This document shows positions 2,627 through 8,320 of a stretch of 64,000 nucleotides of DNA, piece after piece. Source of the DNA: Bryobacteraceae bacterium (GTDB lineage Bacteria > Acidobacteriota > Terriglobia > Bryobacterales > Bryobacteraceae); NCBI GenBank assembly GCA_026002875.1, contig BPGE01000001.1, positions 682,001 to 746,000 of the forward strand. The letters run 5' to 3'. The notes below the pieces were generated by a model. That model saw nothing but the letters and a program-made list of their open reading frames with translations, did no database searches and was not told where the DNA came from. The position numbers and the translations under genes are program-made. Numbering within the stretch: position 1 is the first letter of the stretch; each line of letters begins with the position of its first letter.

Positions 2627-2854
2627 TCATCGGCACAGGAGGCGCGCGGGCAGGTCGGGCGGGGCTGGATTGAGCCAGCTGTGCTGAATCAGGCGGGGGC
2701 GTTCCCCGCTCGTCTCGAAGTGCAGGGCTGTCGCCTCGCGGACATTGGCTTTGAGTTCATCCCAGGTGTCTGCCTGGGTGAAAATCGCATGGCCGAGAGC
2801 GCGGGCGCAGTAGCCGCCTTCTTCGGCATCGCGGATTTCAAAGATGATCTCCAT
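2627..2854 (-). CDS. HicB-like small protein, orphan
   Basis: 75 residues starting MEIIFEIRDAEEGGYCARALG, followed by a pattern (TQADTWDELKANVREA) that matches the HicB/UPF0150 partial RNase-H fold, in which antitoxins begin with a beta strand, a Gly-Gly-Tyr turn and an acidic helix. HicB proteins usually neutralise the HicA mRNA interferase. I see no HicA-like frame with a dsRBD-like 'GSHxxxx' motif within 200 nt on either side. The frame opens further upstream (to 2905), but the HicB fold begins at Met 2854, so I used that. It may be a solitary HicB-like protein of unknown role. Confidence 0.6.
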   Translation of the reverse strand: MEIIFEIRDAEEGGYCARALGHAIFTQADTWDELKANVREATALHFETSGERPRLIQHSWLNPAPPDLPARLLCR

Positions 2855-3046
2855 AGCCCTGCCGCCACTCTCGCTCGAATCCTTCGCGCGGCACAATCGC
2901 TTCAAATCGCCCGTCTGCGGCTGCGTTGCCCGGATCCTCGTTCCTGCGCCGCTGTGCGGGCACGGTTCGCCAATACTGGCATTATTCGAATTTATGGCAA
3001 TCTCCTATTGCATTTCTCCGGCTTGTACGCTAATCTGGAGTACGTG

Positions 3047-3160
3047 ATGCCGTTTGGCGCGACAGTCTGTGACCCTCAGCTCCTGTCGCCCAGGGGTGTC
3101 TCCATTCTCGTCATTGTAGGGATCATTCGGATTGGAGTCGCTGTACCGGCGCCCGCCTGA
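3047..3160 (+). CDS. Branched-chain-amino-acid leader peptide of the ilv operon
   Basis: A 37-residue ORF with a good Shine-Dalgarno GGAG (3037-3040) 6 nt before ATG 3047. Residues 18-33 read VSILVIVGIIRIGVAV: 5 Ile, 5 Val and 1 Leu in 16 positions. Four of the five Ile codons are ATT and two Val codons are GTA, AT-ending choices that stand out in this GC-rich genome. The stop codon (3158-3160) lies inside the 5' arm of a potential antiterminator. This is what a ribosome-stalling leader peptide should look like: shortage of charged Ile, Val or Leu tRNA would stall the ribosome upstream of 3151. It sits 150 nt upstream of ilvB, just before a terminator hairpin. Confidence 0.85.
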   Translation: MPFGATVCDPQLLSPRGVSILVIVGIIRIGVAVPAPA

Positions 3161-3204
3161 GTGACCCTACACCAAGGACAAATTCCGAGGGCCACCAGGC
3201 GGGC
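3151..3204 (+). promoter_or_regulatory. Antiterminator pairing of the ilv attenuator
   Basis: GCCCGCCTG (3151-3159, the last codons and stop of the leader peptide) is perfectly complementary to CAGGCGGGC (3196-3204), which lies at the top of the terminator's 5' arm and in its inner stem. The two structures are mutually exclusive. A ribosome stalled on the Ile/Val codons leaves 3151-3159 free to pair and blocks the terminator. A ribosome that reaches the stop codon covers it and lets the terminator fold. Confidence 0.75.
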
Positions 3205-3234
3205 AGATCCCCGCAGGTGGCCCTTTCGGTTTTT
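3188..3234 (+). terminator. Attenuator terminator upstream of ilvB
   Basis: AGGGCCACC (3188-3196) pairs perfectly with GGTGGCCCT (3216-3224). An inner stem GCGGG (3200-3204) with CCCGC (3210-3214) can stack on it. The hairpin is followed by TTCGGTTTTT (3225-3234). This is a Rho-independent terminator located between the leader peptide stop and the ilvB start, so it must be read through for the operon to be expressed. Confidence 0.82.
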
Positions 3235-3309
3235 GCCGGCCTGACGGAGTGATCCCTGTCCCGCAACGAGCGGTGGCTTGAGAGAAACAAGGAGAGGACA
3301 AGAGTCGAT

Positions 3310-5040
3310 ATGGCCCAAACGATGAGCGGTGCGCGGATTCTGATGGAATGCCTGCAGCGCGAGGGCGTGGAAGTAATCTTCGGCTATCCGGGGGGCGTGA
3401 CCCTGCCGCTGTACGATGCGATGTACGAAGGCCAGATCCGCCACATTCTGGTGCGGCACGAGGAGAACGCCTGCTTCATGGCTTCCGGCTACGCCCGGTC
3501 CACCGGCAAGGTCGGCGTCGCCTGCGCCACTTCCGGACCCGGCGCCACGAACCTGACCACCGGGTTGGTGGACTGCATGATGGACTCGATCCCCGTCGTG
3601 GCGCTCACCGGGCAGGTCTCGTCGAAGCTGATCGGCTCGGACGCCTTCCAGGAGGCCGACACGTTCGGCATCACCCGCTCGGCCACCAAGCACAACTACC
3701 TGGTGAAGGACATCAAAGAGCTCGCTTCGGTGATCCACGAGGCGTTCTACATCGCTTCCACCGGGCGGCCCGGCCCCGTTCTGGTGGACATCACGAAGGA
3801 CGTTCTCCAGGGCCAGGCGCACTACACGCCCGTGCACGCCATTCATCTGCCGGGCTACAAGCTGGTGACGGAAGGCCACGCCGGCCAGATCCGCCGCGCC
3901 GCGCAGATGATGTGGGAAGCCTCGCGGCCGTACGTTTACGCGGGCGGCGGCATCATTGCCAGCGGCGCTCATGAGGAGCTCCGCGAGCTCGTCGAGACGC
4001 TCGACGCGCCGGCCGTGCTTACGCTGATGGGCCTGGGCGCGCTGCCTGCCGATCATCCCAATTTCATTTCGATGCCCGGCATGCACGGCTCCTATGCGGC
4101 CAACATGGGCATGTACGAGTGCGACCTGCTGATCGCCCTCGGCGTCCGCTTTGATGACCGCGTCACCGGACGCCTCGCCTCTTTCGCGCCGCACGCCAAG
4201 GTGATCCACGTCGACATCGACCCGGCCGAGATCGGCAAGAACCGCGCCGCGGACCTGCCGATCGTCGGCGACGCGAAGAAGGTTCTTGGCCGCCTGGTGA
4301 GGGCGCTGAAGGAGAGCGCTCCGGAAATGCGCGGCCTGCGCGAAAAAGAGCGCCGCGAATGGTGGGAGCAGATCCGCGCCTGGAAGGAAGAGCATCCGCT
4401 GAAGCCCGTCTTCAGCGCGGACGAAATCAAGCCGCAGCATCTGATGGTGGAGCTCGACCGCCTCTGCAACGGCAACGCCATCGTCAGCGTCGACGTGGGC
4501 CAGCATCAGATGTGGGCGGCGCAGTTCATCCGGTTCAACAAGCCGCGCACGTGGCTCAGCTCGTCAGGACTCGGCTCGATGGGCTTCGGCCTGCCCGCCG
4601 CCATCGGGGCGCAGGTGGCGCATCCGGAAGCGCTTGTCGTGGCGCTGGTGGGCGACGGCGGCTTCCAGATGTCGATCCCCGAGATCTCGACCATCGCCAA
4701 CCAGGGGCTGCCCGTGAAGACCATCATCATGAACAACGGCTATCTGGGCATGGTGCGGCAGTGGCAGGACCTCTTCTATCAGAACCGCCTCAGCGCCGTG
4801 CAGATCGAGGCGTTCCCGAACATTGAGAAGCTTGCCGACGCGTACGGCATCAAGGGCCGCATCGTCGAGAAGCCGTCCGAGCTGCGCTCCGCGCTCGAAG
4901 ACGCCTTCCGCCATCCCGGTCCCGTGCTGGTCGACGTGCGCGTGTCGCCGTTTGAAAACGTCTATCCGATGGTGCCTGCCGGCGCGGCGATCAACGAAAT
5001 GGTGCTGGCGCCGCCCAAGCCCGTCGAGGTGCCCGCCTGA
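3310..5040 (+). CDS. ilvB: Acetolactate synthase, large catalytic subunit
   Basis: 576 residues, standard AHAS length. It joins pyruvate to pyruvate or to 2-oxobutyrate, the first shared step of valine, leucine and isoleucine synthesis. Visible landmarks: the N-terminal TPP domain with the catalytic Glu in 'VRHEENACFMASGYAR', the FAD/central domain ('GVRFDDRVTGR'), and the C-terminal TPP-binding motif GDGGFQM...NNGYLGMVRQWQ. It is preceded by AAGGAGAGGA and by the leader-peptide attenuator. ilvN follows after 24 nt, so the two subunits are made together. Confidence 0.97.
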   Translation: MAQTMSGARILMECLQREGVEVIFGYPGGVTLPLYDAMYEGQIRHILVRHEENACFMASGYARSTGKVGVACATSGPGATNLTTGLVDCMMDSIPVVALTGQVSSKLIGSDAFQEADTFGITRSATKHNYLVKDIKELASVIHEAFYIASTGRPGPVLVDITKDVLQGQAHYTPVHAIHLPGYKLVTEGHAGQIRRAAQMMWEASRPYVYAGGGIIASGAHEELRELVETLDAPAVLTLMGLGALPADHPNFISMPGMHGSYAANMGMYECDLLIALGVRFDDRVTGRLASFAPHAKVIHVDIDPAEIGKNRAADLPIVGDAKKVLGRLVRALKESAPEMRGLREKERREWWEQIRAWKEEHPLKPVFSADEIKPQHLMVELDRLCNGNAIVSVDVGQHQMWAAQFIRFNKPRTWLSSSGLGSMGFGLPAAIGAQVAHPEALVVALVGDGGFQMSIPEISTIANQGLPVKTIIMNNGYLGMVRQWQDLFYQNRLSAVQIEAFPNIEKLADAYGIKGRIVEKPSELRSALEDAFRHPGPVLVDVRVSPFENVYPMVPAGAAINEMVLAPPKPVEVPA

Positions 5041-5064
5041 GAGAGCGCGCGAGGAAAACCGACC

Positions 5065-5607
5065 ATGCTGATGACGATCTCCCTGCTCATGGAAAACAAG
5101 CCGGGCGCGCTGATGCGCGTCACCGGGCTGCTGTCGCAGCGCGGCTACAACATCGAGTCGCTCACCGTCGGGCGCACGCTCGATCCGACGCTGTCCCGCA
5201 TGACCATCTGCGTCGACGTCGAGCCGCGGCTGCGCCCGCTGCTCATCAAGCAGATGAACCGCCTCGTCAACGTCCTGCAGGCGCACGATCTGACGGAAGC
5301 CCCCGCCGTCATCCGCGAAATGGTCCTGCTGCGCATCCGCGTCAGCCTGGAAAACCGCACGGCGATCCTGAAAGAGGCCGAGATCTTCGGCGCGCGCGTC
5401 GTCGACAGTTCGGTGGACGGCTTCGCGCTGGAGGCCAGCGGCGATCCGGAAAAGCTCGAAGAGTTCGTCGCCGTCATGCAGACTTACGGCGACATCGAAG
5501 TCACGCGCTCCGGGCTTGTGGCCGTCTCGCTCGAGCCGCGCAAGCTCAAGCTCGCGCCCCCGATCCCGAAGGGGCACTCTGAATCCGAACCCGCTCACAC
5601 CCGATAG
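5065..5607 (+). CDS. ilvN: Acetolactate synthase, small regulatory subunit
   Basis: 180 residues. An N-terminal ACT domain (about residues 4-75: '[20 protein letters not shown]', '[11 protein letters not shown]') binds valine for feedback control in this family. A C-terminal small-subunit domain follows ('[13 protein letters not shown]'). It activates the IlvB catalytic subunit. The gene is 24 nt after ilvB and 22 nt before ilvC, in the same operon. The C-terminus extends slightly past the usual AHAS small subunit end with a charged tail. Confidence 0.95.
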
Positions 5608-5629
5608 AAGGAAGGAAGTCTCACTCACA

Positions 5630-6637
5630 ATGGCCAAGCGTTATTACGAACAGGACGGCTCGCTCGAGCCTTTGCAGGGCAAAACCGCAGCCATCATCGG
5701 CTACGGCTCGCAGGGCCACGCCCATGCGCTCAACCTGCGCGACTCCGGCGTCAGCGTCGTCGTCGGCCTGCCCGCCTCTTCGCGCTCCCGTGCGAAAGCT
5801 GAAAATGCCGGGCTCACCGTGCTGACTCCGGCCGAGGCCGCCGCGCGCGCCGACTTCATCATGATCCTTGTGCCGGATCATATCCAGGCGGACCTGTACA
5901 ACACGGACATCGCGCCTTCGATGAAGCCGGGCAAGACGCTCATGTTCGCTCACGGCTTCAATATTCATTTCGGCTTCATCCAGCCGCCCGCGGGCGTCGA
6001 TGTCTCGATGGTCGCGCCCAAGGCGCCGGGCCACCGCGTGCGCGAAGTGTTTCTTGAAGGCCAGGGCGTGCCGGCGCTCGTCGCTGTCGCGCAGGACGCC
6101 TCCGGCAACGCTTTGCGCAATGCGCTCGCTTACGCGCTCGCGCTCGGTTCGCTCAAGGCCGGGGTCATCGAAACCACGTTCCGCGAGGAGACCGAGTCCG
6201 ACCTGTTCGGCGAGCAGACCGTGCTCTGCGGCGGCGTCAGCGAACTGATCAAGGCGGGTTTCGAAACGCTCGTCGAGGCAGGCTATGCGCCCGAGATCGC
6301 CTATTTCGAGTGCCTGCACGAACTGAAGCTCATCGTCGACCTCATCTACGAGGGCGGCCTCAGTTACATGCGCTACTCGGTCTCCGACACGGCCGAGTAC
6401 GGCGACTACACGCGCGGGCCGCGCATCATCGACAGCCGCACGCGCGAGGAGATGCGGAAGATCCTCGCAGAAATCCAGTCCGGCGCGTTCGCCAGAGAGT
6501 GGATGGACGAGAACCGCAGCGGCCGGCAGAAGTTTCTGGCCATGCGCGAGGCCGCCCAGAAGCACCAGATTGAAGTTGTCGGCGCCGAGCTGCGCCAGAT
6601 GATGACCTTCCTCAAGAAGAAGAAGGTGGAGCAGTAG
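5630..6637 (+). CDS. ilvC: Ketol-acid reductoisomerase, class I
   Basis: 335 residues (class I size). It converts acetolactate or acetohydroxybutyrate to the dihydroxy acid with NAD(P)H and Mg2+. The Rossmann motif [17 protein letters not shown] is near residue 25, and the knotted C-terminal domain shows the metal-binding acidic residues ('[11 protein letters not shown]', '[20 protein letters not shown]'). Start ATG 5630 gives [10 protein letters not shown], a typical IlvC N-terminus; GAAGGAAG precedes it. A longer frame to 5516 overlaps ilvN and is not conserved. Confidence 0.97.
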
Positions 6638-6651
6638 AATTCCCGCCGCGC

Positions 6652-6677
6652 GCCGCGCCCCGCCTGAGGGGCGCGGC
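6652..6677 (+). other. Strong GC hairpin between ilvC and cimA
   Basis: GCCGCGCCCC (6652-6661), loop GCCTGA, GGGGCGCGGC (6668-6677): a perfect 10-bp stem 14 nt after the ilvC stop. No T-tract follows, so it is not a standard intrinsic terminator. It could stabilise the ilvBNC end of the transcript or mark a processing boundary before cimA. Confidence 0.5.
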
Positions 6678-6709
6678 TGCGGCGGTTCGACAGGGAGCAG
6701 GAGCGGAAG

Positions 6710-8316
<1,607 letters not shown>

Positions 8317-8320
<4 letters not shown>

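Follow-up and report, generated by a model that had tools for sequence, protein, structure and literature searches.

The leaders of ilvBN, ilvGMEDA and leu of Escherichia coli follow the classical logic of protector, antiterminator and terminator with gene-specific leader codons, and the leaders presented here probably share this logic; the E. coli leaders are, however, led by a Shine-Dalgarno sequence, in contrast to the probably leaderless one described below. All three attenuators are named in the accessible part of the corresponding source (PMC1183508). As far as the accessible sections of the respective papers go, the leader of Corynebacterium glutamicum ilvBNC—the ilvB-II motif—resembles the present one in the ilvBNC operon, the branched-chain leader peptide, the three alternative hairpins, the leaderless leader mRNA (a probable feature here) and, in Corynebacterium, the conserved control codons CUU and GUA (PMC11857589, PMC10272879). 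The Corynebacterium peptides, however, usually have 15-17 residues with few regulatory codons, whereas those found here have 15-51, and a comparison made by description adds that in the present system the stop codon falls within strand 2, the operon includes cimA and Rfam offers no match. The Mycobacterium ilvB1NC leader likewise has a uORF with a GUA regulatory codon, a terminator opposed to an antiterminator and masking by the stop codon, but its leader of 166 nt carries four regulatory codons, LVVI (PMC13236596). The ilvB-OMG motif is also an ilvB-linked uORF and is spread over several phyla, being represented by 41 members (PMC10272879), although no Rfam family of that kind was matched here. 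Finally, the attenuator RNA of Sinorhizobium meliloti trpL has its 5' end at the leader start codon, but it concerns tryptophan and a member of the Proteobacteria (PMC7298713).

With regard to the Acidobacteriota, the accessible text of one survey reports the attenuators predicted in this phylum almost all without an associated function (PMC2965389). The sequence-only reading of the present DNA was aware of no ilv attenuator described from the phylum, and, as far as the open-licence literature shows, none of this kind has been described there. The present results thus extend the leader-peptide attenuation of ilv operons to this large phylum; the mechanism of the ilvB attenuator is the classical one, its most unusual features being the probable leaderless start and the apparent gene-by-gene retuning.

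The window, i.e. the whole stretch of 64,000 nucleotides analysed, comes from a genome consisting of one contig. It carries on the forward strand, at 3310-8320, the gene order ilvB-ilvN-ilvC-cimA, all four genes being named by NCBIfam equivalogs above their cut-offs: the large subunit of acetolactate synthase (ilvB, 3310-5040; TIGR00118, 797 bits), its small subunit (ilvN, 5065-5607; TIGR00119), ketol-acid reductoisomerase (ilvC, 5630-6637; TIGR00465) and citramalate synthase of the isoleucine branch (cimA, 6710-8320; TIGR00977, 699 bits). They are preceded by a leader ORF together with an antiterminator and a terminator, which we interpret, with a probability of about 0.92, as a ribosome-mediated transcription attenuator of ilvBNC-cimA that would sense charged Ile- and Val-tRNA. 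The analysis establishes the parts themselves and their conservation, the fact that terminator and antiterminator covary and, at separate loci, a choice of leader codons that in most cases suits the gene behind the leader.

The leader ORF at 3047-3160 has 37 codons and ends with the TGA at 3158-3160; its re-reading bore out the earlier claim of 11 Ile/Val/Leu among 16 consecutive residues. These regulatory codons occupy 3098-3145 on the forward strand, and the Ile/Val/Leu run is kept in relatives. The binomial chance of 11 such residues in 16 is 7e-6 at the operon fraction of 0.172, a value given for the best stretch chosen and left uncorrected. The Ile codons, described previously as mostly ATT, and the two GTA codons for Val are indeed unusual, ATT accounting for 4/5 of the leader Ile codons against 9/92 in the operon, and GTA for 2/6 of the Val codons against 1/136.

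As for the RNA structures, the segments 3151-3159 (GCCCGCCTG) and 3196-3204 are exact reverse complements of each other, and a perfect match of at least 9 nt was obtained in 18 of 5000 shuffles of 3161-3234. The 9-bp antiterminator proposed from the sequence is confirmed, and minimum-energy folding makes the helix longer: 3151-3170 pairs with 3187-3204 over 17 bp (-31.6 kcal/mol). Its 5' arm (strand 2, 3151-3170, forward strand) overlaps the leader stop codon, and its 3' arm (strand 3, 3187-3204, forward strand) serves also as the 5' arm of the terminator, both being assigned with the aid of covariation. The terminator at 3187-3225 was computed with an 8-bp stem (3189-3196/3216-3223) and an inner 5-bp stem (3199-3203/3210-3214), in place of the 9-bp stem first described; its energy is -33 to -36 kcal/mol, varying with the stretch folded, and its 3' arm (strand 4, 3216-3225, forward strand) comprises the 8-bp stem plus 2 bp present in one fold. 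It is followed by the T-tract TTTCGGTTTTT (3224-3234, forward strand), which in the window species is interrupted by CGG. Strand 1 (3115-3130, forward strand) pairs with 3157-3171 over 15 bp to form a hairpin of -30.0 kcal/mol, the likely protector helix 1:2, which appears weaker than the other parts. It is stronger in the window genus and in genomes G047 and G127 than in the family as a whole; there its duplex energy is only mildly better than that of shuffles (z of -0.93 +/- 0.13) and its score exceeds the 95th percentile of shuffles in 17/118 leaders. According to the folding, antiterminator and terminator compete for strand 3, and antiterminator and protector for strand 2, so that the three states are mutually exclusive. 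The earlier reading had overlooked the likely 1:2 helix, the antiterminator in its full length, the promoter conserved in relatives and the start, which is likely leaderless; the last two are described next.

The promoter consists of a -35 box, TTGCAT (3008-3013), and a -10 box, TAATCT (3031-3036), both on the forward strand and separated by 17 nt. TTGCAT is exact in 112/117 relatives, and 124/126 family regions match a promoter with this -35 box, a 17-nt spacer and a TANNCT-like -10 box located 5' of the leader; it should be noted that the scan was consensus-based, requiring at least 5/6 of the -35 box and favouring TA...T and the 17-nt spacing, so that these counts carry some selection. A simple consensus scan of the leader region missed both the promoter and the terminator, whose -35 box, loop and tail probably fall outside its rules. 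The sequence-only reading had taken GGAG at 3037-3040 for a Shine-Dalgarno sequence; this part of it is probably wrong, since the motif directly follows the -10 box and lies between it and the expected start, probably outside the transcript. The codon GTG 3044 is found 7 nt past the -10 box, in frame with ATG 3047, and is the probable start of the leader ORF (3044-3160, forward strand, stop TGA 3158-3160), the ATG being the alternative. An in-frame GTG at 6-7 nt past the -10 box is present in all five members of the genus as well as in G047 and G127, and the position of ATG 3047 is occupied by ACG in G144, the GTG being kept in all five genus members. Promoter spacing thus suggests that the leader mRNA of the window is probably leaderless, beginning at GTG 3044. 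SD-like 4-mers occur between the -10 box and the leader start in 10/117 relatives, the window species included, versus 79/118 before ilvB, where the stretch searched is longer. A start codon lies 6-7 nt past the -10 box in 48/117 leaders (6-9 nt in 57/117); leaderlessness is nevertheless not universal in the family, because 49/117 leaders start 11-19 nt and 11/117 start 24-66 nt past that box. Leaderless genes were predicted at an average of 13.3% in three Acidobacteria genomes, according to the part of that study available (PMC3160421).

The same region bears on the idea that the terminator ends an upstream transcript and that what reads as the leader is the last part of a 159-aa ORF running from GTG 2681 to 3160. 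In the window this frame does stay open across 2681-3160, as it does within the 600 nt preceding ilvB, but in relatives it is closed inside the promoter (G099, G047), 14-36 nt before the -35 box (G127, G144) or 63-105 nt before it (G126, G044). Moreover, the long frame encloses the conserved promoter, and the gene-sized ORF upstream of the leader region (714-2420) is on the opposite strand, which makes this explanation extremely improbable.

To follow the attenuator across the family, ilvB was located in 150/150 of the family genomes searched, and the upstream regions of 125 of them plus one more (126 in total) were inspected with a rule that asked for a terminator preceded by an ORF that begins with ATG or GTG, is 12-60 codons long and includes a stretch of 12 residues of which at least 7 are I/L/V. 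The rule held in 110/126 regions, compared with 1/126 reverse complements and 4/630 shuffles. Seven rows with only 6 I/L/V (G116, G011, G138, G018, G117, G004, G065) belong to the same leader type by their promoter and ending. The 118 leaders counted are the 126 minus four unassigned (G109, G132, G050, G083) and four excluded (G069, G085, G114, G084); the leader of G083, situated on a short contig, was found later, G085 and G114 have leader-like ORFs missed by the leader picker, and G084 has no leader. The peptides span 15-51 residues (median 36) with long Ile/Val runs; reading frame, stop position and type of residue are kept, and the length and the preceding sequence vary. A covariance model of the attenuator core matched 134/150 family genomes at E<=1e-5, the 72 training genomes being among those matched. 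Four matches (G000:C1:4248452, G001:C35, G007:C20, G144:C44) were rejected as attenuators of this kind, having no convincing leader. The one in the window's own genome (L360, G000:C1:4248452-4248533) is weak and terminator-like, with no I/V/L leader.

The alignment of ilvB upstream regions that had been proposed along with the attenuator was run on 72 cores, five from the window's genus and one from each of 67 other genera, without G051 and with the G054 row shortened. In the terminator, 97.7% of the 639 cells are paired, and 6/9 pairs have changed on both sides with 74 compensatory cells; the observed values were reached in 0/500 shuffles (4/500 for the pair count), and slid partners gave at most 66.7% paired. 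The antiterminator, held in a single fixed register, is 85.1% paired with both-side changes in 5/7 pairs, its 15 compensatory cells standing against 17 with partners slid by -3, so that this measure does not discriminate. Most of the unpaired cells are explained by a one-base register shift in 16/72 rows. When the shift is allowed, 449/476 core pairs form in 68 genera, whereas permuted partners with the same freedom give a mean of 425 (sd 2.6) and reach 449 in 0/5000 cases. Examples are TTCGCCTG/CAGGCGAA in G012, CCCGTC/GACGGG in G149 and CCTCGCC/GGCGAGG in G089. The helix test performed per genome is weaker, with 52/115 above the 95th percentile of shuffles and 21/115 above all 60. Terminator and antiterminator thus covary over 68 genera, and, together with the conserved leader composition, this supports the original interpretation as a ribosome-mediated attenuator.

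It should be pointed out that a terminator with an antiterminator would, taken alone, fit also a riboswitch platform, and ppGpp riboswitches control ilvB in some bacteria, as stated in the accessible part of PMC10272879. A leader binding a metabolite or tRNA (T-box, ppGpp or another riboswitch) and regulating ilvB, with the ORF being incidental, is, however, highly improbable: within the window, no Rfam family except tRNA reached its gathering score, the search of 2900-3320 at E<=5 yielded two unrelated matches far below theirs, and the reading frame, stop position and residue type are conserved, with leader residues that vary with the downstream gene. The control could also be exerted through translational coupling, Rho or a transcription factor, the hairpin being a minor element. 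A conserved dyad, CATTATTCGAATTTATG (2980-2996, forward strand), with AT at positions 2-3 and 15-16 in 111/117 relatives, is found 5' of the -35 box and suggests an additional DNA-binding regulator; also, the substitution of candidate regulatory codons of Streptomyces coelicolor ilvB was without effect, according to the portion of the report at hand (PMC1262725). We consider this alternative very unlikely, since a T-run terminator and an overlapping antiterminator that covary over 68 genera are hard to explain without intrinsic termination. The dyad itself is AT-rich, lies directly 5' of the -35 box and has T-N11-A spacing. Such an element we take to be a putative activator operator; it may be the site of a DNA-binding activator acting in addition to attenuation.

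Returning to ribosome-mediated attenuation, we infer the start site, translation, stalling and regulatory response of the leader to be as follows. RNA polymerase would start at ~3043-3044, so that the transcript would be leaderless, or nearly leaderless, and a ribosome could bind straight to the GUG at its 5' end. When Ile and Val are sufficient, the ribosome would reach the stop codon at 3158-3160 and cover strand 2, whereupon the terminator 3:4 would end transcription. When either amino acid runs short, it would stall within ~3098-3133 and open helix 1:2, strand 2 would take strand 3 into the 17-bp antiterminator, and polymerase would continue into ilvB. If the leader is not translated, strand 2 would remain locked in helix 1:2, favouring termination.

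The codon choice seen in the window extends to the family, as revealed by comparing the last 18 codons of the 118 leaders with 42 ilvB genes of the same family. ATT makes up 63% of leader Ile versus 19% in ilvB, and GTA 55% of leader Val versus 5%; CTT rises from 7% in ilvB to 41% in the leaders, and GTG falls from 50% to 3%. GTA stands at codon -5 in 89/118 leaders. Codons for Ala and Pro in the leaders are likewise shifted to T in the third position, and because of this the bias may be partly structural or directed against internal starts. The ending PA, shared by 90/118 leaders, reflects RNA pairing, since the last codons CCC GCC TGA form strand 2. Among its 46 tRNAs the window's own genome has three tRNA-Val genes, one for each of UAC, GAC and CAC, and hence a simple selective-charging theory does not obviously predict GTA.

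The same genome contains a candidate for a second attenuator of the same kind, before hisI and the following hisG, the former named by NCBIfam NF000768 above its cut-off. An ORF of 24 codons, four of them for His in a row (L298:2507-2581, minus strand), lies 75 nt before hisI; behind it comes a terminator with a 9-bp stem and TTTT, and GGCGGGCG near the end of the ORF is the exact complement of a part of that terminator. Judging from this single genome, the arrangement looks like another leader-peptide attenuator. No such leader was seen in the stretches read before leuA, trpE and two homoserine dehydrogenase genes of this genome.

Within the family, copies of the attenuator occur also before other genes. 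At separate loci in three genera (G008, G080, G128, G101, G050, G068), cimA is preceded by its own copy with an Ile/Leu leader (loci L356, L373, L375, L377, L386, L387), the cimA of G068 being a fragment below the NCBIfam cut-off. The six cimA leaders total I 25, L 20 and V 4, compared with V 22, L 10 and I 2 in four ilvB leaders from the same genera and V 482, I 416 and L 149 in the 114 other ilvB leaders; because the choice of leaders used their I/V/L content, such composition counts carry some selection. A leuA copy in G140 (L381) shares the core and has a Leu-rich leader (L 7, I 1, V 0). Leader codons thus largely follow the downstream gene—Ile/Leu for cimA, Val for ilvB and Leu for leuA. 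The matching is imperfect, however, since two ilvN leaders (G008, G080) are Ile-rich (I 10, V 4, L 1), even though all three amino acids depend on the small subunit, and the ilvA (threonine ammonia-lyase) leaders of genus g69 (G109, G069, G132; loci L378, L379, L380) are short and arginine-rich, having no more than two Ile close to the end; in this genus ilvB showed no leader. The gene names of G080 ilvN, G069 ilvA and G132 ilvA were given by eye. In G002 a copy precedes a 103-residue ACT-like protein, which no NCBIfam model names at E<=1e-20. It should also be noted that the genera with separate copies may be related, and the gene-matched copies are then not independent events.

Taken together, these copies incline us, if by a narrow balance, to a branched-chain regulon built on one core, often leaderless, which would have been re-coded gene by gene, each copy before a separated pathway gene sensing an amino acid that belongs to that gene, and would operate beside histidine attenuation in the same organisms; the re-coding, held with the same slight preference, would run to Val for ilvB, Ile/Leu for cimA, Ile for ilvN and Leu for leuA. 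If true, nature would have carried out a series of sensor-retuning experiments in the Acidobacteriota. The covarying, codon-biased and mostly gene-matched leaders form a natural data set on codon choice, leaderless initiation and the evolution of sensing specificity.

The attenuator probably recurs outside the order too, though with less certainty. Within the order, two other families gave covariance-model matches in 3/10 genomes (E<=0.01), the best ones preceding an ilvB recognized by eye, with an Ile/Val-rich leader. Among other families of the class, 4/48 regions obeyed the rule of an ORF plus terminator; among other classes of the phylum, 7/40 did. In those other classes, attenuator-like arrangements were seen by eye in G257 (two loci), G284, G353, G369 and G296; the loci L260, L262, L265, L267, L258 and L294 there represent possible ilvB attenuators with Ile/Val-rich leaders. 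The ungapped complement between leader end and terminator, evaluated against 500 shuffles, was not better than shuffles in G369 (292/500) and G310 (182/500), weak in G284 (49/500 as good) and moderate in one G257 locus, G353 and G296 (15-28/500); it was clear only in the other locus of G257, where 1/500 shuffles was as good.
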